DNA of 64,000 bases from Myxococcales bacterium (GTDB lineage Bacteria > Myxococcota_A > Polyangia > Polyangiales > Houyiibacteriaceae): NCBI GenBank assembly GCA_029861865.1, contig JAOTYL010000001.1, positions 62,001 to 126,000 on the forward strand, written 5' to 3'. A program made the translations under genes and the position numbers. Of this stretch, positions 28,144-39,430 are shown piece after piece. Within the stretch, counting starts at the first letter, position 1. Each line of letters begins with the position of its first letter. Under the pieces are notes generated by a model. It had not been told where the DNA came from. It saw only the letters and a list, made by a program, of their open reading frames with translations, and did no database searches.

Positions 28144-29865
28144 ATGGCAGCCGTCGCCGCAGCTCTGATCCTCGCTGCGTTCGCCCTCGCGTACCGCTTC
28201 TACGCACGATTCCTGGGTGACCGCATCTATGACGATCGCCAGGACTTCGTCACGCCGGCGCACGAGCTCGAAGACGGCATGGACTACGTCCCAACGCAAC
28301 GCGCGGTCTTGTTCGGCCACCACTTCACGTCGATTGCGGGTGCCGCGCCGATCATCGGTCCTTGCGTTGCCGCGTATTGGGGTTGGGGACCGGCGCTCGC
28401 CTGGGTGGTCCTTGGGACGATCTTCATGGGCGCGGCTCACGACTTCGGCGCGTTGGTGGCGAGCGTGCATGAGAAGGGGCGCTCGATCGCCGACATTGCG
28501 GCCAATACGGTGAGCCGACGCACTCGCATCTTGTTCATGTGCTTCGTGTTGGTGTTGATCTGGCTCGTTCTGGCGGTTTTCGCGATGGCGATCGCCGGTC
28601 TCTTCGTCAGCCAGCCCACGAGCGTCATCCCGATCAACGTGCAAATCATCGTCGCGATCGTCATCGGGTGGTTGGTCTACAAACGGAAGGTGAAGCTGCT
28701 CGTCCCGTCCCTCATCGCCCTAGCCGTGCTCTACTTCTTCGTGTGGGTAGGGACGAAAGTGCCCGTGGATTTCGTGGCGATGGGATTCGACGAGCACGGG
28801 GTCACGACGGCCTGGATCTTCTTCCTGTTGGTATATTCCGCGATCGCGAGCTTGCTGCCGGTGTGGCTTCTTCTTCAGCCGCGGGACTACATCAACAGCC
28901 ATCAGCTATTGGTCGGCCTCGGGCTCCTGTTCTTGGGCGTTTTGATCGCGCATCCCAATTTCGATGCCCCGATTTTTCGAACCGCTGAGGAAGGGGCACC
29001 GCCGATCTTTCCGATTCTCTTCGTGACGATCGCCTGCGGCGCGATCAGCGGCTTTCATGGGCTGGTCGCCTCGGGGACGACATCCAAGCAGGTCGATCGT
29101 CTTTCGGACACGCGCATGATCGGATACGGCGGCATGCTCGGCGAAGGCTCGTTGGCGCTGGCCTCGACACTCGCCGCTGTTGCGGGCATCGGGTTGGTGG
29201 GAGCCTGTGCCCTTCCAGGCCAAGGCGTGGTCGAGAACCTGAGCTGGGCGGTCTATTACGACAGCTGGGAGCACGCCGGTGGCAACAAAGCCGCCGCCTT
29301 CGTGCTCGGCGGCGGCGCGTTCCTCGAGGCGGTCGGCTTGTCGGCGGAGCTATCACGAACACTGATGGCAGTGTTGGTCATCGCGTTTGCGGCCACGTCT
29401 TTGGACACAGCCGTGCGCATTCAGCGCTTCATTCTCGCCGAGCTCGGCACCGCTATGCGAATCAAGTCGCTCACGAACCCCTACATCGCGACCTTGGGTG
29501 CAATCGTGCCTGCGATGTACCTCGCCTTGGCGGAGACGCCCGACCCTGCAACAGGTCAGGCGAAGGCAGTCGGCTGGGTCCTGTGGCCGATCTTTGGCGC
29601 AAGCAATCAGCTTCTTGCCGCGCTCACGTTGATGACACTGTCTCTCTACTTCTTCGCCAAGAAGAGAAACGTCTGGCCCTTGGTGATCCCGATGGTGCTC
29701 GTGATGTCGGTCGCAGGCCTGGCGCTCCTGACCAACCTCCAAGACTTCATCGCACAAGGCAACGTGCCGTTGGTCGCCCTCGCATCGCTGATGTTGGTGC
29801 TCTTGCTGTGGATGGTGATCGAAGGAGTTGCCGCAGCCCGAAGAAGCGTGAGTTTGCGCCGCTGA
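28144..29865 (+). CDS. cstA: CstA-family carbon starvation/pyruvate or peptide transporter
   Basis: A 573-residue polytopic membrane protein of at least 15 predicted helices. Family phrases are FARFLGDRIYDD-like near the N-terminus, GHHFTSIAGAAPIIGPCVAAYWGWGP and AAHDFGALVASVHEKGRSI. CstA proteins import pyruvate or peptides, in E. coli during carbon starvation. It is shorter than E. coli CstA (~700) but inside the range of the shorter DUF4161-less group. The start ATG lies in an 84-bp divergent gap with dapA; no clear ribosome site is visible. The 3' end is 3 bp from the convergent amidohydrolase gene. Confidence 0.92.
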   Translation: MAAVAAALILAAFALAYRFYARFLGDRIYDDRQDFVTPAHELEDGMDYVPTQRAVLFGHHFTSIAGAAPIIGPCVAAYWGWGPALAWVVLGTIFMGAAHDFGALVASVHEKGRSIADIAANTVSRRTRILFMCFVLVLIWLVLAVFAMAIAGLFVSQPTSVIPINVQIIVAIVIGWLVYKRKVKLLVPSLIALAVLYFFVWVGTKVPVDFVAMGFDEHGVTTAWIFFLLVYSAIASLLPVWLLLQPRDYINSHQLLVGLGLLFLGVLIAHPNFDAPIFRTAEEGAPPIFPILFVTIACGAISGFHGLVASGTTSKQVDRLSDTRMIGYGGMLGEGSLALASTLAAVAGIGLVGACALPGQGVVENLSWAVYYDSWEHAGGNKAAAFVLGGGAFLEAVGLSAELSRTLMAVLVIAFAATSLDTAVRIQRFILAELGTAMRIKSLTNPYIATLGAIVPAMYLALAETPDPATGQAKAVGWVLWPIFGASNQLLAALTLMTLSLYFFAKKRNVWPLVIPMVLVMSVAGLALLTNLQDFIAQGNVPLVALASLMLVLLLWMVIEGVAAARRSVSLRR

Positions 29866-30863: not shown

Positions 30864-31631
30864 ATGGCGGGGCGCGCACAGAGCCTGGTTCGCCGCGCCG
30901 CGCGCGGGACGACTTGGGCACAGTTCGTCGATTACATGTCCCCGGCCCTCTACGAGGTGATGCCGCTTCGGTCCATCTTCGCACAGGGCAAGGAGTTCAT
31001 CGCTAACAGTCTCGATTCAGCGCGGTCGGCGCAAGCGCGAAAACAAGTCGAGGACTGGCTCTCAGATCAGGAGGGCGTCATTCAGCTCGGGGCGGGCTCC
31101 AAGGGCGACGGCGAGCAGTGCCTGGCAGAGCTCGAGGAGGACGCGCGACGTAGTGTCGGCCAGCGAATCCTCGAGCTCTATTTCGGCCAGATTTTCGCGA
31201 GCAACCGCGCGATCCTCGATCTTCGCGCCGAGTCCTTCGCGGCCGCGGAGGGGGGCGTCCTGTGGCGGCCGCGGTCGATCTATCTCGAGTGGCAGCCCGA
31301 GTTTCTGGGCGGACTGCGGGATCTCTACGCGGGGTTCTACCTCGGTGACGACCCAAGATTCGAACGCGGTTTGGCGGCGCTGAGTCTCGAAGAGGCAGGC
31401 GATCTGCTCGTGAGTCATCTCGGCGACGGCGACCAGCGCAGCGTTCGATTCGAGATGACCGTGTTTCAGTCGAGCTTCCATGAAATGTTTCTGCGGTGCC
31501 GAGATCGGGGCATCTCTTTGCACCGGAACTTCGTCGCGCTAGGTACTTACTTAGTGTGCCTCTACGACGTACTCGAGACACTCGATCTGGAGCTCGACGT
31601 CCGAGACGCGTTCGAGCGGATTCACGCATGA
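30864..31631 (+). CDS. Unrecognised helical protein, first gene of ArsA-pair operon
   Basis: A 255-residue protein I cannot assign to a family. It is soluble, mostly alpha-helical by composition, and begins basic (GRAQSLVRRAARGTTWAQFVDYM). There are no membrane segments, no cysteine clusters and no nucleotide-binding motifs. A conserved-looking segment is LWRPRSIYLEWQPEFLGGLRDLYAGFYLGDDPRFERGL-like (residues ~133-170, given here in parts). The C-terminal half has FQSSFHEMFLRCRDRGISLHRNF. The downstream gene begins 58 bp later on the same strand. By context it may work with the isoprenoid-synthase-like protein and the two ArsA-type ATPases. Confidence 0.7.
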   Translation: MAGRAQSLVRRAARGTTWAQFVDYMSPALYEVMPLRSIFAQGKEFIANSLDSARSAQARKQVEDWLSDQEGVIQLGAGSKGDGEQCLAELEEDARRSVGQRILELYFGQIFASNRAILDLRAESFAAAEGGVLWRPRSIYLEWQPEFLGGLRDLYAGFYLGDDPRFERGLAALSLEEAGDLLVSHLGDGDQRSVRFEMTVFQSSFHEMFLRCRDRGISLHRNFVALGTYLVCLYDVLETLDLELDVRDAFERIHA

Positions 31632-31689: not shown

Positions 31690-32757
31690 ATGTGCAATTC
31701 CGCAAACCCACAGCAAACCACGGTAGTCGTCGAAGCTCTGGCGCTTTCGAGAGCGCAGCGAGTGCAGAAACTTCGGGCGCTCATGGGGCATGCAGACCCT
31801 GCCGTGAAGCAGCTGACGATGGGCATCCGAGACATCACTTCGCGTCACTACGACCTCTTCGTGATGCCTCTGATTCGCCGGCACTGGCCGGGCATGCTCA
31901 GCGATCCATTCGCCGTCAAGATGCGCCTGGCCGCGTGTGATCTCTACGCGTCTGCGCCCTATACGGTCCTCTTTTGCGCGCCGCACAGGCCGTTTTCCGT
32001 TGCTTTGATCACGCATCTTGGAAACCGCTTCGCCCTTCCCGACGTCGTGCTGGGGTTCGCGTCGCGTCTAGCTTTGAACGTACTCGGGCGCGTTGCGCTG
32101 GCAGATCAACACCGGCGGATCATTCTCATTGCAGCCTTCATCGCCATGATCGATCACGCGTTCGACCACTGCATGGATGACTCACCCGAAGAGCGCGGTC
32201 GCAAGCTCCATGCACTGCTCGATGGCGACTGGGAGCCCGATACTCCCCAACTCGAGCTCACGCGCGCCCTTCAAGTAGAGATGGAACGCGATTTGGGGCC
32301 GCTCGAGCGGGAGCATTTCGATCAAGCGGTCCGCAAGCTCAAAGACTGGGTCGACTCCGAAGTGGCAGGGATGACCGGCGTGGCTGATCCCACCGGGGTA
32401 GGCCATCGGCTCGCGGGAATCGAAGGCACCATCGATGGGCTCCTTTTTCCTGTCCACCGCTATGCCGGTGAAAGGGCGCGGCCCTGGATGTACGAGGTGT
32501 CCCTGTTCGTGCAGATGCTCGACGACTATATCGACGTCGAAACCGATACCAATGACGGGCGGTTGACGCCTGTGATCTCAGGCGAGTGGACTTTCGAAGA
32601 CATCGCCCGCACGTGGCGCAACACGGTCGCCGGCATCGAAGAGCTAGCGCGGGCGGGCGGGCATGCCGCGCCCCATTACGTGCGCTTCATCCGCGAAGCC
32701 TATGTGCTCATGCTTTGCGAGGTGCTGGAGGGGATGGCGGCGGGCCTTGCCGACTAA
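31690..32757 (+). CDS. Class I isoprenoid-synthase-like protein, function unknown
   Basis: A 355-residue all-helical protein. Two Asp-rich motifs are spaced as in trans-isoprenyl/squalene-phytoene synthases: MIDHAFDHCMDD (D155, D159, D163, D164) and FVQMLDDYIDVETDTNDGR (D278, D279, D282, D286), followed by LTPV, which recalls the Q...D..ED...GR.YLP motif of phytoene synthases. Such motifs bind Mg2+-diphosphate. The similarity is motif-level and the N-terminal ~110 residues are not family-like. It overlaps the following ArsA gene by 11 bases if that gene starts at TTG 32747. Alternative: a non-catalytic relative. Confidence 0.6.
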   Translation: MCNSANPQQTTVVVEALALSRAQRVQKLRALMGHADPAVKQLTMGIRDITSRHYDLFVMPLIRRHWPGMLSDPFAVKMRLAACDLYASAPYTVLFCAPHRPFSVALITHLGNRFALPDVVLGFASRLALNVLGRVALADQHRRIILIAAFIAMIDHAFDHCMDDSPEERGRKLHALLDGDWEPDTPQLELTRALQVEMERDLGPLEREHFDQAVRKLKDWVDSEVAGMTGVADPTGVGHRLAGIEGTIDGLLFPVHRYAGERARPWMYEVSLFVQMLDDYIDVETDTNDGRLTPVISGEWTFEDIARTWRNTVAGIEELARAGGHAAPHYVRFIREAYVLMLCEVLEGMAAGLAD

Positions 32758-33670
32758 TGAAGGAACCTCGGGGGCACATGTCCAACTCGCTCCCGCAGTA
32801 TTCGTCACGGGCAAGGGTGGGGTTGGCAAGACGACCGTCGCCGCGGGACTTGCTTTGGCTGCAGCGGAAGCCGATGGCGAGTCCGTGTATGTGGAGTTTG
32901 GGGACGCCGCAGGCGGACGCCGCGTGCTTCGGAATCGGCCGAGCGGCCTCGAGCACATCACACTCGATCCGAGTCGGGCGGTGGTGAAGGCTGCGACACC
33001 AGTGTTCGGGTCAGCGAGGCTTGCCAAGTTGGCCCTCGACAACTTCGCGATGCGGCCGCTGATCCGCGCTGCACCCGCAATTCGGGAGCTTGGCGTCCTC
33101 GAGCTCGCACGACAGGTCGTCGCAGAACATCCCGGCAAGCGGGTCGTTTTCGACATGCCCGCCACAGGACATAGCGTGGCTTGGCTCAAAGTCGCGCGGC
33201 AGGGGCGGGAGCTGACGGGCAAAGGGCCCGTCCACGATGTTTGCGCGAGGATCGAGGACGAGCTGGTGTCACCGGGCCGCGCTTCCGTCGTCGTCGTGAC
33301 ACTTCCCGAGCGCCTTGTGCTCTTCGAGACTTTGGCGCTGTGCGATACGGTCGAAAAGGAAGTGGGCCTCTTGGTCGATCGACTCGTGGTAAACCGCGTT
33401 CCTCAGGCGCCGTCGGCCGCTGCCCTCGCCGACGCGGCCGCTCTCTCCAAGACACCTGACCGCGTCGGTGAGGCGGCCGCGAAGCTCGCTGAGCTACTCT
33501 CGGTACGAACCACAGTTCGGGAACAGGTCATCAACGCGCTCAATGAGACCGTGCACCGCCACGGCGAGGGCAAGGGCGTCGAAAAGGGGCTCACGCTGCT
33601 GCCGATGGCGGCCAAAGACCCCACAGCCGCGACGGTCGCCGACTGGTTGCGTGCCGCGGGAGCCGCATGA
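32747..33670 (+). CDS. ArsA/Get3-type ATPase, subunit 1 (BagA-like)
   Basis: A 307-residue deviant-Walker-A ATPase. The P-loop VFVTGKGGVGKTT (residues ~18-30) contains the signature lysine K23 used in trans in ArsA/Get3/MinD dimers. Switch II reads FDMPATGHSVAWLKV, followed by ELTGKGPVHDV, which resembles M. tuberculosis Rv3679. No arsenite-binding cysteines are seen, so arsenic export is unlikely. Start is uncertain: TTG at 32747 (inside the previous gene's end) is the best in-frame choice, since no ATG or GTG lies between it and the P-loop. It overlaps the next gene by four bases (ATGA). Confidence 0.85.
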   Translation: MPTNEGTSGAHVQLAPAVFVTGKGGVGKTTVAAGLALAAAEADGESVYVEFGDAAGGRRVLRNRPSGLEHITLDPSRAVVKAATPVFGSARLAKLALDNFAMRPLIRAAPAIRELGVLELARQVVAEHPGKRVVFDMPATGHSVAWLKVARQGRELTGKGPVHDVCARIEDELVSPGRASVVVVTLPERLVLFETLALCDTVEKEVGLLVDRLVVNRVPQAPSAAALADAAALSKTPDRVGEAAAKLAELLSVRTTVREQVINALNETVHRHGEGKGVEKGLTLLPMAAKDPTAATVADWLRAAGAA

Positions 33671-34734
33671 GCCGCCCAAGAGTCATTGTGTGCTCTGGAG
33701 GAGGCGGCGTTGGCAAGACAACGACTTCCGCTGCGCTTGCGCTCGCCCTGGCGAAGAGCGGATCCCGTGCGCTAATCGTGAGTATTGATCCGGCCCGCCG
33801 CCTGGCAGACGCTATGGGCGTCGAGCTCGGGACGAAGGCCCGTGAGATTTCGCTCGATGCCGGGCGAGGACAGCTCTTTGCGCTCATGCCCGATCCACAT
33901 AACGCGTTGCGGACGTTCATCGAGATTCTCTTCGAAGAGGAGCCCGGGTCGATCGAAAGGCTTCTGAAGAACCGATTGTATCTCGCCCTCGAAGCCGCGG
34001 TTCCCGGCATCCATGAAATAGTCGCGATGAGTCTCACGTGGCGAGCGGTTGTCGATTATGACATCGACGTGGTCGTCATCGATACTGCGCCGTCTCGAAA
34101 TGCCGTCGATTTCATCGGCTATCCAAAGCGTTTGGCGAAGCTTCTGGGTGGTCGCGCGGTCGGGTGGATGGCGGCGATCGGGAAACGTACGAACATTGCG
34201 TCACAGGACGACAGGATGGGGCGGGTCGAGGGACTGTTGGTGCGAGCACTCGGCCCGGTGGCGCGAGACGTGGCCGGTCTGTTCTCCGAAATGGCCCGTG
34301 TTCGCGAGCGCTTCATCATGCTCAACGAGCACACGAGCGAGCTACTGCTGCACCCGGATACACGTTACTTTCTCGTCGCCTCGCTCACCGCAGCGGCGAG
34401 AGATGACGTCGATTACCTGTTCCGAAAGCTGAGCGCGCTCGAGCTCGCGCCGCGGGCTCTCATCATCAATTCGGCGTTCGTCCCGAAGCGTGACTGGATC
34501 GAGGCCCTCGAGAGCTCCGACGAAACAACGACCGCGATCCGTGAAGTGCTCGCCGCGCTCGATGAAGAAGAATTGACCCGCCAGCGGGCTGCAGAGCGCA
34601 CCACTGGGGCTTTCTCGAGACGATATCCAAACGTGCCGCAAGTGCGCCTGCCATTCATCGAGGTGGTGGAGCCTCGAAGCATCGTGCACGCTCTCGCAGA
34701 CCACTTCGACATTCCGGCGCTGCTCGCTCAGTAG
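33667..34734 (+). CDS. ArsA/Get3-type ATPase, subunit 2 (BagB-like), signature Lys missing
   Basis: A 355-residue paralogue of the preceding gene. P-loop VIVCSGGGGVGKTTT keeps K17 but has Gly (G12) where the signature lysine should be. The second motif is VVVIDTAPSRNAVDFIGYPKRL, very like the DTPPSRNALDF segment of M. tuberculosis Rv3680. An N-terminal SIDPARRLADAMGVELG segment is also shared with that family. The two gene products probably form a heterodimer. The ATG overlaps the upstream TGA (33667-33670). Its 3' end is 13 bp from the convergent oleD stop. Confidence 0.87.
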   Translation: MSRPRVIVCSGGGGVGKTTTSAALALALAKSGSRALIVSIDPARRLADAMGVELGTKAREISLDAGRGQLFALMPDPHNALRTFIEILFEEEPGSIERLLKNRLYLALEAAVPGIHEIVAMSLTWRAVVDYDIDVVVIDTAPSRNAVDFIGYPKRLAKLLGGRAVGWMAAIGKRTNIASQDDRMGRVEGLLVRALGPVARDVAGLFSEMARVRERFIMLNEHTSELLLHPDTRYFLVASLTAAARDDVDYLFRKLSALELAPRALIINSAFVPKRDWIEALESSDETTTAIREVLAALDEEELTRQRAAERTTGAFSRRYPNVPQVRLPFIEVVEPRSIVHALADHFDIPALLAQ

Positions 34735-34747
34735 CGAGGCCGCGAGC

Positions 34748-35740
34748 TCATTTCATGGTCCGCTCGGCCCACGCCTTGAGACGCTTCATGCCTTCGGCGT
34801 AACTGACATTCGGCTGGTAGCCGAGGTCGCGTCGCGCCGCCGAGATGTCGTACCAGTGCGCGGTCGAGAGTTGGCTCACGAGATATCGTGTGATGGGTGG
34901 CTCGGAATAGAGCCGCAAGAGCTTCCAGAGGCTTTCCACTGTTGCCGCTGCGCTACGCGCAAAGGTCGCGGAAACGGAGCGGGTCACCGGCGGGAGCCCG
35001 ACGGCATCCAGCATGTCGTTGATGAACTGAGGGCCGGGCAGCGGCTCGTCTTGCGTGATGAAGTATGCCCTGCCGGCGACCGGAGAGCCTGGCGATAGAC
35101 GGTCGTAGGCCAGGAGGTGAGCCGAGACCGCGTTGTCGATGTAGGTAGTATCCAACGGTTGTGGCTGCCCAACCATCCTGAGCCTTCCAGACTTCGCGCG
35201 CGCAACGAGGCGAGGAAGCACGGATGTGTCGCCCGGGCCCCAAACCAGGTGCGGTCGAATCGCGACCGTTGACAGTGCTTCGTCGTTCGTCGCCAAAATC
35301 TCGCGTTCGGCCATTGCCTTAGTCGCCGGATAGTGCGCTTCAAATCGTTCGGGGTAGGGCGCGGACTCGTTGACGCCATCGACCGAGTCGCCGCCGTGCA
35401 CGACGCTCGGGGTGCTGGTGTAGACGAGCTTGCGGACTTCGTGCGTGCGACACGCCCAAATCACGTGACGAGTCCCTTGCACGTTCGTTTGAAAGAAGTC
35501 CTCGTATCTGCCCCAAAGGTCGAAGCGAGCCGCGACGTGGAAAACGCCGTCGCATCCTGCCACCGCCGTCGCGACCGCATTCCCGTCCGCCAAGTCACCG
35601 CGATGGAGCTCGACGCCCAAGTCGCGAAGATCCGGGTAGTCGCCTCGACAGAAGACGCGAACCCGCTCGCCGCGCTCGACGAGCGCTCGTACGATCCCGC
35701 GACCGACGAAGCCGCCGCCTCCGGTTACGAGTAGCGTCAT
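34748..35740 (-). CDS. oleD: OleD, NAD(P)H-dependent 2-alkyl-3-ketoacid reductase
   Basis: A 330-residue short-chain (extended) dehydrogenase with the N-terminal nucleotide-binding motif LLVTGGGGFVGRGIVRAL and the catalytic YPATKAMAE (YxxxK). It is of the 3-beta-hydroxysteroid dehydrogenase/epimerase type seen in OleD, which reduces the OleA 2-alkyl-3-ketoacid product to the 2-alkyl-3-hydroxyacid. The ATG at 35740 overlaps the oleC stop (ATGA, 35737-35740). It is last in the oleA-B-C-D operon and convergent with the ArsA-type operon. Identification rests on family plus complete gene order. Confidence 0.92.
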   Translation of the reverse strand: MTLLVTGGGGFVGRGIVRALVERGERVRVFCRGDYPDLRDLGVELHRGDLADGNAVATAVAGCDGVFHVAARFDLWGRYEDFFQTNVQGTRHVIWACRTHEVRKLVYTSTPSVVHGGDSVDGVNESAPYPERFEAHYPATKAMAEREILATNDEALSTVAIRPHLVWGPGDTSVLPRLVARAKSGRLRMVGQPQPLDTTYIDNAVSAHLLAYDRLSPGSPVAGRAYFITQDEPLPGPQFINDMLDAVGLPPVTRSVSATFARSAAATVESLWKLLRLYSEPPITRYLVSQLSTAHWYDISAARRDLGYQPNVSYAEGMKRLKAWAERTMK

Positions 35741-37398
35741 CGGCCAGCTTTCGATTCGACCCAGTGCATCAGCTTCTCGCGACCGATCTTCGCATTGTGC
35801 CGGATGTCTACGGGGAACCCGGGATGCTGCACGAACGTGTCGATCCGGGTGAGCTTCGGATGGGTGCGTGCGATTTCGCGCAGCTCGCGTTCGATCTTTC
35901 CCCAGTCGCCCGAACCTGGCTCGAGCTCGACGCACAGAGTGGGCCGACGCACGCCTCCGATCGACGGTGCGACCAATGCCGATCGATAGACGGCAGGGTG
36001 CGTGTCAAATACCTTTTCACACGGTACGGTGAACATCGTTTCGTCCTCGAGCGTCACCCTGTGGCTCTTTCTGCCACAGAACCAAAGCCGGCCCGACGCG
36101 TCGCGCCAACCGAGGTCTCCCATGCGGTGCCAAATGGTATCGCCATCGCGTATCTTGGCGAGCGCCGTGCTGCGCTCGTCGCCGAGATATTCCTCGGTGA
36201 CCATCGGTCCACGCACGGCAATCTCGCCCACCTCGCCGTCGAGAAGCTCCAGGCCATCGGAAAAGCTCGCGATCGGTTCATCAGTGATCTGAATGACCTT
36301 GATTTCGATGTCGGGGACTGGCGCGCCAACGCAGACGCCCGCGCCCTGCTCCGTGTCATGCCACGTGCTCCCCAAGATATCCCGGCCTGCTAGACACGCG
36401 ACCGGCAACGATTCGGTCGCCCCGTAGGGCGGGAACACGTCACCCTCTGCCGGCAGCATTTGATGCCAGCGAGCGAGCGTTTGACCTGGCATTGGAGCGC
36501 CCGCCGCGATGACCCGCCGAAGCGTGGGCAACTTCGTTCGGTGTTGCTCGCCAAACCGACCGACCGTATTGAGAAGAGCCGGCGAGCCGAACATCGTCGT
36601 GATACCGAAACGCTCGATCGGCTCGATCACGTTCCTCGGGTCCACGTCTGCGGGCCGCGTCGGATCCATGTCGGGAAGCACCGTCGTCATACCAAGCGCA
36701 GGATCAAACAGGGCAAACATCGGAAAGGTCGGCAGATCGATCTCCCCGGGCTCGATCGAGAAGAGCTTTCGAATCGCTTCTACCTGCGCGAGGAAGTTGC
36801 GGTGACGGTAGACGACCCCTTTCGGCGGTCCGGTGCTTCCAGAGGTGAAGAGCACGGCGGCCACTTCGTTTCCGCGCGTCGGCATTGGTCGATGACCTTC
36901 GGCGACCCGCTTCGCGCCAATCCTTTCGACCTGCTGGAGCGTGTGTTTGGCGAGCCCCCAACCTCCAACATTCACCGTGTGTCGAATCGTCGACCGGCCC
37001 CAGCCGAGGGTAAGACGTGCGGCGTGGGCCACCGGGATCCCTATGAAGGCGCTTGGCTTCGCGCGGGCGATACACCGACCGAGGCCCCGAATCCCGAGAC
37101 CGGGATCGATCATCACTGGCACCACTCCTGCCTTGAACATCCCAAACGTCAGTGCGAAGAGCTCAGCGCTCGGTCGCACCATGAGTGCCGCGCGGTGGCC
37201 GCGCTCGATGCCCACCGCGTGCAGGCCCGCGGCAATTTGATCGCTGCGTCGATCGAGCTCTTGATACGAAATGCACGTGTACACGAGCTGTCCATCCGCG
37301 TTGCGCCGTTTGGTAGGCACGTACATGGCGGTCACGTTCGGCTGCGACGTGGCCATTGTCGGGAGTACGTCTGCAACGGTTTCGGTCGCAGTGGTCAT
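35737..37398 (-). CDS. oleC: OleC, beta-lactone synthetase (acyl/AMP-ligase family)
   Basis: A 553-residue adenylate-forming enzyme. The AMP-binding loop is LFTSGSTGPPKGVVYRHRNF (residues ~183-202). Other landmarks are PPYGATESLPVACLAG, the LWFCGRKSHRVTLEDETMFT hinge region, and a C-terminal catalytic lysine region NAKIGREKLMHW. OleC converts the 2-alkyl-3-hydroxyacid to a cis-beta-lactone using ATP. It overlaps oleB (ATGA, 37395-37398) and oleD. The gene is full length. Confidence 0.93.
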   Translation of the reverse strand: MTTATETVADVLPTMATSQPNVTAMYVPTKRRNADGQLVYTCISYQELDRRSDQIAAGLHAVGIERGHRAALMVRPSAELFALTFGMFKAGVVPVMIDPGLGIRGLGRCIARAKPSAFIGIPVAHAARLTLGWGRSTIRHTVNVGGWGLAKHTLQQVERIGAKRVAEGHRPMPTRGNEVAAVLFTSGSTGPPKGVVYRHRNFLAQVEAIRKLFSIEPGEIDLPTFPMFALFDPALGMTTVLPDMDPTRPADVDPRNVIEPIERFGITTMFGSPALLNTVGRFGEQHRTKLPTLRRVIAAGAPMPGQTLARWHQMLPAEGDVFPPYGATESLPVACLAGRDILGSTWHDTEQGAGVCVGAPVPDIEIKVIQITDEPIASFSDGLELLDGEVGEIAVRGPMVTEEYLGDERSTALAKIRDGDTIWHRMGDLGWRDASGRLWFCGRKSHRVTLEDETMFTVPCEKVFDTHPAVYRSALVAPSIGGVRRPTLCVELEPGSGDWGKIERELREIARTHPKLTRIDTFVQHPGFPVDIRHNAKIGREKLMHWVESKAGR

Positions 37399-38285
37399 GT
37401 CTGCGTTCCGAGGAACTCGCGGACGAGCACCTCGATCTCGTCTGGCGCGTCTTCGAGGAGGTAGTGGCTGCAGTCAGCGAAGCGATGCACCGTCGCATTC
37501 GAGAGAACCTCTTGCCACCGACGGAGGAAATGGTCGTCGAACACGAAGTCGCGATCGCCCCAACAGATCAGCGTTGGGCGATCGTTAAACTGCGAAAGAT
37601 GCTCACCGACGTCACGGACGATCGAGAAGCTCGGGTCGGCGTCGGAGAGCGGGATGTCTTGGACGAATCTCAGCACGGCACGACGGTTGTCCCAGCTATC
37701 GTATGGTGCGCACAGAGCATCGCGCACCTCCTTTGGCAGCTTGCGTCGAGTCACAGCGAGTCGCGTTGCGCCTCGTGCGAACGCGTTGAGTCCACGAACC
37801 AGCACGGCGCCCACTGCCGTGTCTCGCGCTAGCCGGAGTGCAGCTGGAAGCCTCTTGGAAGATGGCATTGGGAACGCAGCGGTGTTGAGGAGTACGAGCC
37901 GCGAAACGAGCCGCGGGTGGCGATGCGCCCAGCCCATGCCGATCATGCCTCCCCAATCGTGCAGAACGAGCGTGATGTTCTCGAGCCCTAGATGGTCGAC
38001 TAAGGTCTCGATGTCGTCGATCCGTTGCCGGAGTCGATAGCTGTACTCGTCGTCATTGGGTTTGTCGGATTTTCCGCATCCGACGTGGTCGGGCGCGATC
38101 ACCCGATGAGTCGGCGCCAGCGCCTCGATCAGCCGCCGCCAGTAGAACGACCACGTAGGGTTACCGTGCAGCATGAGCACCGGCGGGGCATCGCAACCGC
38201 CTTCATCGACGTAGTGCATGCGCGCACCGCCCGGGAGCTGCAGCCAGTTAGGTTCAAACGGGTAGAGCTCCTCCGAAACTTCCAT
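37395..38285 (-). CDS. oleB: OleB, beta-lactone decarboxylase (alpha/beta hydrolase)
   Basis: A 296-residue haloalkane-dehalogenase-like alpha/beta hydrolase. The nucleophile is D110 in LVLHDWGGMIG; the oxyanion HGNPTWSFYWRRL and the late His in FADCSHYLLEDAP complete the catalytic set. OleB decarboxylates the beta-lactone to a cis-olefin. I place the start at ATG 38285, eight bases after the oleA stop; a TTG at 38300 in the same frame would overlap oleA. OleB and OleC are separate genes here, unlike the actinobacterial and some gammaproteobacterial OleBC fusion. Confidence 0.93.
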   Translation of the reverse strand: MEVSEELYPFEPNWLQLPGGARMHYVDEGGCDAPPVLMLHGNPTWSFYWRRLIEALAPTHRVIAPDHVGCGKSDKPNDDEYSYRLRQRIDDIETLVDHLGLENITLVLHDWGGMIGMGWAHRHPRLVSRLVLLNTAAFPMPSSKRLPAALRLARDTAVGAVLVRGLNAFARGATRLAVTRRKLPKEVRDALCAPYDSWDNRRAVLRFVQDIPLSDADPSFSIVRDVGEHLSQFNDRPTLICWGDRDFVFDDHFLRRWQEVLSNATVHRFADCSHYLLEDAPDEIEVLVREFLGTQT

Positions 38286-38293
38286 CTGTGCGG

Positions 38294-39310
38294 CTACCAA
38301 ACGACTTCGGCCATGCTGCAGTTGAGACCCGAGCCGATGCCCAGCAGTCCCACGCGGCTGCCCGACTGAACGCGACCGGCCTCGACGGCCTTCGACAAGA
38401 CGATCGGCACCGCGGCAGGTCCCACGTTCCCTAGCTCTTCGTAAGTCGTCAGGATCCTCTCGGGCTCGAGCTCGAGCGCAGCCGCGAGCTTTTCGGTGTG
38501 AGCCTTGCTGACTTGATGCAAGACGTATTCATCGAGGCAACCGGGGCTCCAGCCGAGCTCGACCTTCGCGGCGTCCCACGTCCGTTTTGCGAGCTTGATG
38601 CCTTCGACGAGAAGCTCCCGGGTTTTCGTCTGCATCTGGTCAACCTGACCGTGGCAAAGGTGGTTGTGCTCCGTCGCTGCCACGGTCACCGAACCGACAA
38701 ATCTGTGTCCGTAGGGTACGAGGTCGCTCCTACCGAGCAGCATCGCCGCGCTGCCGGATCCGAGGGTCAGCGTCGCAAAGTTCGCGCGGAAGAATGCCTC
38801 GTCGACGTCGGGCTGGCGCAGTCGCTCAAGGGTCTTGCTCACGACGTAGCGACTGTTCTCGCCGTCGACCACGATCCCGTAGTCGATCTGACGCCGTTCG
38901 ATCATGTTGCCAACGATCTCCATGCCACTGAGAAAACCCAAGCAGGCGTTTCCGAGGTCGAAATTGACGCAGTCCGAGCCCAGACCGAGGTTTCGGTGCA
39001 CGAGGGCTGCGGTCGAGGGTTCGATGTAATCGCGACACACAGATGTGTTGATCAAAATTCCGAGGCGGCCGCGGTCGACGCCGGCTCGTTCGATGGCAAC
39101 TTCCGCCGCGGCGGTGGCTGCCTCGGAAGGTTGAAACGAGGCTTCCCACATCCGACGCGCCACGATCCCGGTAAGTCCTCGGAGGATCCCGCGCGGAATG
39201 CCCAGCCGCTGCATTGGCTCGGCTAGCGTGGCCTCGAGCTCCGTCGAGGTTACGCGATCGCGAGCATCGACGTGGGCCACGCTGCAGATCGATACATTCT
39301 CAAAGCGCAT
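38294..39310 (-). CDS. oleA: OleA, thiolase-like acyl-CoA condensing enzyme
   Basis: A 338-residue KAS III-like enzyme that condenses two fatty acyl-CoAs head to head. It begins MRFENVSICSVAHVDARDRV, closely like known OleA N-termini. The catalytic Cys is C123 in DLGNACLGF; E97 in DYIEPST is the OleA-specific base; H265 (LHQVSKAHT) and N295 (GNVGPAAVP) complete the site. The C-terminus GLLGIGSGLNCSMAEVVW is typical. The open frame upstream is 35 codons longer but lacks similarity. It is first in the operon; 39311-39430 should carry its promoter. Confidence 0.95.
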   Translation of the reverse strand: MRFENVSICSVAHVDARDRVTSTELEATLAEPMQRLGIPRGILRGLTGIVARRMWEASFQPSEAATAAAEVAIERAGVDRGRLGILINTSVCRDYIEPSTAALVHRNLGLGSDCVNFDLGNACLGFLSGMEIVGNMIERRQIDYGIVVDGENSRYVVSKTLERLRQPDVDEAFFRANFATLTLGSGSAAMLLGRSDLVPYGHRFVGSVTVAATEHNHLCHGQVDQMQTKTRELLVEGIKLAKRTWDAAKVELGWSPGCLDEYVLHQVSKAHTEKLAAALELEPERILTTYEELGNVGPAAVPIVLSKAVEAGRVQSGSRVGLLGIGSGLNCSMAEVVW

Positions 39311-39430
39311 CGGGAGGCAACCTAGTTCGCGGGAGGTAGCCGGACAAGCCACTCCGGCACTGCAAACCATCCTCTCGGCGCCAAGATTCGCAGCGAACCA
39401 CTGTTGAGCTGCCAAATTCGGGGGCTAAAG

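Follow-up and report, generated by a model that had tools for sequence, protein, structure and literature searches.

Delivery of tail-anchored proteins is what the Get3-type machine is known for. While a cargo is brought to the membrane, Get3-type ATPases keep its hydrophobic segments shielded, and in one structure of plant Get3d the chamber holds density that is consistent with a phospholipid and that its authors describe as possibly nonspecific (PMC10248533). The mycobacterial BagA/BagB pair has been implicated in protection from the toxicity of glycerol metabolism and of nitric oxide, according to work cited in PMC10597346. In trans-type isoprenoid synthases, Mg2+ and the allylic diphosphate are held by a pair of Asp motifs located on helices that face each other (PMC7839719), and terpene cyclases likewise use paired Asp motifs, Mg2+ and an allylic diphosphate (PMC9814573).

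Here we describe a locus in which a protein resembling the second kind of system is encoded directly beside a pair of ATPases resembling the first. The window, a stretch of 64,000 nucleotides from a Myxococcales bacterium (contig JAOTYL010000001.1), contains a gene with an ATG start for a 355-residue protein (31690..32757, + strand), identified from its open reading frame, 32 relatives, its predicted fold and structural matches in the PDB. The protein carries two Asp-rich motifs at the positions where a first-pass annotation had located them, DHAFDHCMDD at residues 155-164 and LDDYIDVETDTNDGR, which holds D278, D279, D282 and D286. Its reading frame is kept across the 32 further relatives, which are 48-94% identical to the window protein; we therefore regard the gene as real, and a chance open reading frame is ruled out. 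Nearly all of the relatives come from metagenome-assembled genomes of Myxococcota. The distribution is patchy, with a relative in 26 of the 183 genomes of the host's order, others in two further families of its class, and one in at least one genome from another part of the phylum. A pattern-led scan of 84,980 species yielded 31 loci, all in metagenome-assembled genomes; for 30 of them the title names Myxococcota, Deltaproteobacteria or something related, and for the remaining one it says just 'bacterium'. More distant homologues were sought as well, and the search returned only weak matches in four genomes (L227, L228, L246 and L247), which we take as chance; the one that was inspected, in L227, overlaps a longer open reading frame on the opposite strand.

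Sequence searches with the window protein gave no match in Pfam, NCBIfam or PADLOC and no meaningful one in the PDB. The Pfam and NCBIfam family HMMs likewise gave zero matches when run against all 26 or 33 members, an absence that is expected if the protein is divergent and that fits the earlier suggestion of a divergent family member.

AlphaFold2 models built from 26 and from 33 sequences (pLDDT 86.0 and 88.8, pTM 0.84 and 0.87, respectively) predict an all-helical bundle. With VIA-align, the first model was superimposed on epi-isozizaene synthase with Z 16.6 (rmsd 4.1 Å, 261 residues), and the same enzyme was the best match of the second model with Z 18.1 (rmsd 4.1 Å, 263 residues); all 50 of the 50 rows listed were class I synthases. 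The Foldseek E-values were weak, from 1e-3 to 1e-2, and the matches listed were all class I terpenoid synthases, including CrtM-like dehydrosqualene synthases. Such E-values, together with the ease with which helical bundles score high, would suit a look-alike, that is, an unrelated helical bundle with Asp-rich helices. We consider this highly improbable, since the Z of 18 exceeds the value of about 14 that the tool's guide gives as a typical best for helical models lacking a clear match, the matches listed are purely class I synthases, and the profile comparison described below aligns the motifs in register. Membership of the class I terpenoid-synthase fold superfamily is thus well supported by the predicted structures. 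The helices that follow motif 1 (166-178, 186-199, 204-228, 238-259 and 264-288) fit the order D1, E, F, G and H of this fold. Motif 1 would accordingly lie on helix D (138-161) and motif 2 on helix H (264-288), and the side chains of both motifs probably face one cavity. The first-pass annotation had proposed an arrangement like that of isoprenoid synthases; the predicted class I bundle, its PDB matches and the position of the motifs at the ends of helices D and H support this at the level of fold and motifs.

Conservation was counted in an alignment of 33 members, the window protein and its 32 relatives. Invariant in 33/33 are D155, H156, D159, H160, R169, R240, G243, G246, D249 and G250, and also Q275, D278, D279, D282 and D286. 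Metal motif 1 (residues 155-160, DHAFDH; 32152..32169, + strand) follows the pattern DHxxDH, its two Asp and two His residues are each conserved throughout, and in the models it sits near the C-terminal end of its helix. The earlier reading had extended this motif to D164, and here only the first part stands: D163 and D164 are variable (position 163 is D in 17/33 members and otherwise E, T, P, Q or G), so the metal motif proper is D155xxxD159 with H156 and H160. The helix-G motif (residues 242-250, AGIEGTIDG; 32413..32439, + strand) is an AGxxG followed by DG, in which A242, G243, G246, I248, D249 and G250 occur in every member. Metal motif 2 (residues 275-286, QMLDDYIDVETD; 32512..32547, + strand) has the pattern QxxDD[YW]xDxxxD in 33/33 members and is placed by the models at the end of its helix. 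Because a DDxxDxxxD string appeared in 1,883 of 200,000 shuffles of the window protein and is thus not rare by chance, the weight of the motif evidence lies in its conservation.

To our knowledge, a His at the second position of motif 1 followed by a second His is unusual in the superfamily. H156 and H160 equal the Asp residues in invariance and stand one helical turn apart, an HxxxH arrangement that could indicate that DHxxDH binds a transition metal instead of Mg2+-diphosphate and that the protein carries out a different chemistry, for example that of a hydrolase or an oxidase. We judge this very unlikely, as motif 2 is exactly of the polyprenyl-synthase type and the predicted topology is that of diphosphate enzymes.

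To place the protein among the synthase families, it was compared with sets drawn from related genomes, consisting of 21 polyprenyl synthases, 25 squalene/phytoene synthases and 21 terpene cyclases. Profile-profile comparison gave P 0.0035 for the squalene/phytoene synthases (148 columns, with both motifs in register), 0.0075 for the polyprenyl synthases (166 columns) and 0.067, the weakest of the three, for the terpene cyclases, a value to be set against the 0.027 obtained with a reversed control. The reversed controls ranged from P 0.027 to 0.5, and 14 unrelated clusters gave P of at least 0.097 over short alignments. When the squalene/phytoene set was split, its phytoene-type part alone gave P 0.015 and the other part P 0.17. 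These P-values are marginal, and the profile comparison is suggestive of kinship with squalene/phytoene and polyprenyl synthases.

The diagnostic patterns do not point to one family. QxxDD[hydrophobic]x[DNG] is present in 33/33 members and in 16/21 polyprenyl synthases, and in 0/25 squalene/phytoene and 0/21 terpene synthases. AGxxG is found in 33/33 members, and the stricter [VL]AGxxG in 13/25 squalene/phytoene and 0/21 polyprenyl synthases; column counts place [AS]Fx4DxxxD in 33/33 members, and it occurs in 14/25 of the squalene/phytoene and 0/21 of the polyprenyl synthases. A GGKRxR-type isopentenyl-diphosphate site, which appears as a GG[KR]xxR-type sequence in 14/21 polyprenyl synthases, was not found in the aligned region; residues 111-117, which HMMER aligns to it, read mostly G[ND]xLPLP. 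By these patterns the protein is a mosaic of a squalene/phytoene-like motif 1 and AGxxG, a trans-polyprenyl-like motif 2 and an absent isopentenyl-diphosphate site. Given this mosaic we claim no membership in a single named family, and we read the window protein as a new lineage outside every one of them.

Two genes for ArsA/Get3-type ATPases follow on the same strand. ArsA1 (32747..33670, + strand), which is BagA (Rv3679)-like and has the P-loop GKGGVGKT, matches Pfam ArsA_ATPase at 4.5e-14 and PDB 6bs3_A (Rv3679) at 3.5e-6; BagA is its top NCBIfam match, at 55.6 bits, under the 400-bit equivalog cut-off. Its start is probably the TTG at 32747, the only suitable in-frame start seen before the P-loop, which overlaps the end of the synthase gene. 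ArsA2 (33667..34734, + strand), which is BagB (Rv3680)-like and has the P-loop GGGGVGKT, matches Pfam at 1.9e-27 and, over its whole length, PDB 6bs3_B (Rv3680) at 8.6e-32, with BagB as its top NCBIfam match at 160.5 bits, under the 521-bit equivalog cut-off. The ArsA2 gene starts at an ATG that lies in a 4-base overlap with the end of ArsA1. The chains 6bs3_A and 6bs3_B belong to one solved complex, and each is matched by one of the two ATPases. Both proteins contain the ArsA_ATPase domain, with the signature Lys in ArsA1 and Gly instead in ArsA2, so that ATPase activity may be impaired in one of the two. Among the relatives, ArsA2 proteins nearly always have GGGGVGKT, without the lysine that marks the deviant P-loop, and ArsA1 keeps GKGGVGKT. 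A PADLOC search for defence systems yielded only weak P-loop matches of the ATPases.

The pairing of synthase and ATPases is strongly supported. ATPase genes adjoin the synthase in 29/31 loci and do so in two gene orders, synthase-ArsA1(-ArsA2) in 25 loci and ArsA1-ArsA2-synthase in 4 (L040, L051, L053 and L054). In L035 the ATPase pair lies elsewhere in the genome, and the genome of L056, which we count against the reading preferred below, has distant ATPase pairs only and no close one; an unlinked ATPase pair is kept in G183. Within the order, a close ArsA2 (E <=1e-70) is encoded in 26/26 genomes that bear the synthase and in 15/157 that do not (Fisher 2e-21, kinship between genomes being ignored). 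In the ArsA2 tree the synthase-linked copies largely group, in a few groups; of their neighbours in the tree, L098 and L099 have lost or do not have the synthase, and in L100 and L117 the view is ended by a contig end. No other conserved neighbour of the synthase was found across the examined loci.

Close BagAB-like pairs also occur in genomes where no synthase accompanies them (L098, L099 and L101-L109), and beside these a constant neighbour is absent. The genes found there vary and include those for SDR and GNAT proteins, a histidine kinase and an RCC1-repeat protein, and an unfiltered HMM search of 20 such neighbourhoods recovered 0 hidden synthase homologues. Since the pair occurs alone in other genomes it does not need the synthase, and the lack of a constant neighbour there argues that it has a role of its own. 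We know of no report of an isoprenoid-synthase neighbour of the mycobacterial BagA/BagB pair, and our literature search found no paper tying such a protein to ArsA/Get3. The near-constant adjacency suggests that lipid synthesis and an ATP-driven carrier are coupled here in a way not described before.

The linkage bears on two further explanations. One is that the protein is a divergent but ordinary terpene cyclase whose product is a volatile or small terpene of secondary metabolism, with the ATPases as neighbours that have no direct mechanical link to it. The best structural matches are indeed terpene cyclases, epi-isozizaene synthase first, the missing isopentenyl-diphosphate site suits a one-substrate enzyme, and the patchy distribution (26/183 genomes of the order) also speaks for it. 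We nevertheless consider it rather unlikely, because the protein departs from the NSE-type motif, with D282 at the S/T position, because terpene cyclases gave the weakest profile match, and because the ATPase linkage survives the change in gene order. The other explanation, which the constant association with two ATPases would equally suit, is a non-catalytic protein of class I fold that works like a regulatory subunit, sensing or holding a prenyl diphosphate and controlling the two ATPases. The superfamily does include non-catalytic subunits (PMC7839719), and the host is already supplied with core synthases, as detailed below. In our view it is distinctly unlikely, given that the ligand candidates are invariant in 33/33 members and that the motifs are missing from the non-catalytic small subunits that PMC7839719 describes. 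A tail-anchored client of the ATPases is ruled out, as a hydrophobicity scan detected no hydrophobic C-terminal segment in any member (the best 19-residue mean near the C-terminus was 1.47); the synthase itself is also without a membrane anchor.

The remaining neighbours vary among the loci. Directly upstream lies a gene for a 255-residue protein (30864..31631, + strand) with no Pfam, NCBIfam or PADLOC match, whose C-terminus (GISLHRNFVALGTYLVCLYDVLETLDLELDV) is reminiscent of the end of AarF/UbiB-type proteins; the only other loci in which it accompanies the synthase are the near relative L027 and L033, and it is outside the conserved unit. In three loci of the same genus a protein that by eye is HAD-phosphatase-like takes its place (L028:4751-5614, L029:3-593 and L030:3631-4332), and this might act on a prenyl phosphate. 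Further upstream, a CstA carbon-starvation transporter (28144-29865, + strand; Pfam 7e-136) is unrelated to the synthase. A complete long-chain olefin pathway, oleD, oleC, oleB and oleA (34748..39316, - strand), is convergent with the synthase operon; OleD and OleC are top or near-top NCBIfam matches and the other two have OleB/OleA-type folds. The same layout is found in L027, L028, L029 and L034, all of the host genus. A general link to olefin biosynthesis is ruled out, since ole genes lie beside the synthase only in that genus. Three polyprenyl synthases and two squalene/phytoene synthases are encoded in the host genome, which makes it unlikely that the protein replaces a missing core enzyme.

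Taken together, we give about an even chance to the reading that the protein is an active, prenyl-diphosphate-using enzyme of a deeply divergent new class I lineage that is served by the ATPase pair. That the candidate ligands never vary speaks for a functional active site; the absence of a significant sequence-family match, the marginal profile P-values and the unusual His pair count against this reading. Mg2+ would be held by D155 and D159 on one helix and by D278, D282 and D286 on the facing helix, and would bind the diphosphate of an allylic prenyl diphosphate, which the enzyme would ionise. It might then rearrange, cyclise or transfer one prenyl chain, or join two; simple elongation with isopentenyl diphosphate is less likely, as the GGKRxR site is absent. 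ArsA1 and ArsA2, made from the same operon, probably form a heterodimer like BagA-BagB, and their most plausible task would be to shield a greasy product, or the enzyme itself, or deliver it to the membrane using ATP. The shielding by Get3 and the phospholipid-like density in Get3d make it plausible that such a pair handles a greasy isoprenoid. The specific proposal that the heterodimeric Get3-like ATPase takes up the hydrophobic product of this new-lineage synthase and brings it to the membrane is, in our estimate, quite unlikely as it stands; if true, a machine for the delivery of tail-anchored proteins would work on an isoprenoid.

Beyond the first-pass annotation, the analysis adds the mosaic of motifs, an invariant pair of His residues and ATPase partners that are nearly constant. 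The mosaic, with the His pair, gives the protein an intermediate place among families normally treated as separate, and it bears on the divergence of class I synthases. For the BagAB-type pairs of bacteria, which are poorly understood, the near-constant link to the synthase offers a concrete lead to what they do.

Relative to CrtM, the window protein is presumably about 100 residues longer at its N-terminus. With the squalene/phytoene synthases (PF00494), CrtM included, it shares the [AS]Fx4DxxxD motif 1, the AGxxG helix and the best profile P, but its motif 2 is DDxxDxxxD and not NxxRDxxED, with no [RE] before D282, and the members scanned did not reach the family cut-off. With the trans-polyprenyl diphosphate synthases (PF00348) it has in common the second motif QxxDD[hydrophobic]xD, an Asp motif 1 followed by the invariant R169, and a weak profile match to solanesyl-diphosphate synthase (E 0.7-0.9). 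It differs from them in a first motif that reads DHxxD (33/33) and not DDxxD and in the absence of GGKRxR, and 0/26 members scanned passed the PF00348 cut-off with a library and method that recognise ordinary domains. The bacterial class I terpene cyclases (PF19086; epi-isozizaene synthase 3kb9 and Sat1646 7e4n) are the best structural matches, at Foldseek rank 1, and have Asp motifs at equivalent helix ends, and DDxxDxxxD resembles their (N,D)DXX(S,T)XXX(E,D) motif (PMC9814573); the window protein is nevertheless only ~10% identical to them, has no Pfam match and places D282 at the S/T position in 33/33 members. Finally, the ATPase pair lies well under the NCBIfam equivalog cut-offs for mycobacterial BagA/BagB (PDB 6bs3; PMC10597346) but shares with it the arrangement of an adjacent pair of unequal ArsA/Get3-type ATPases.
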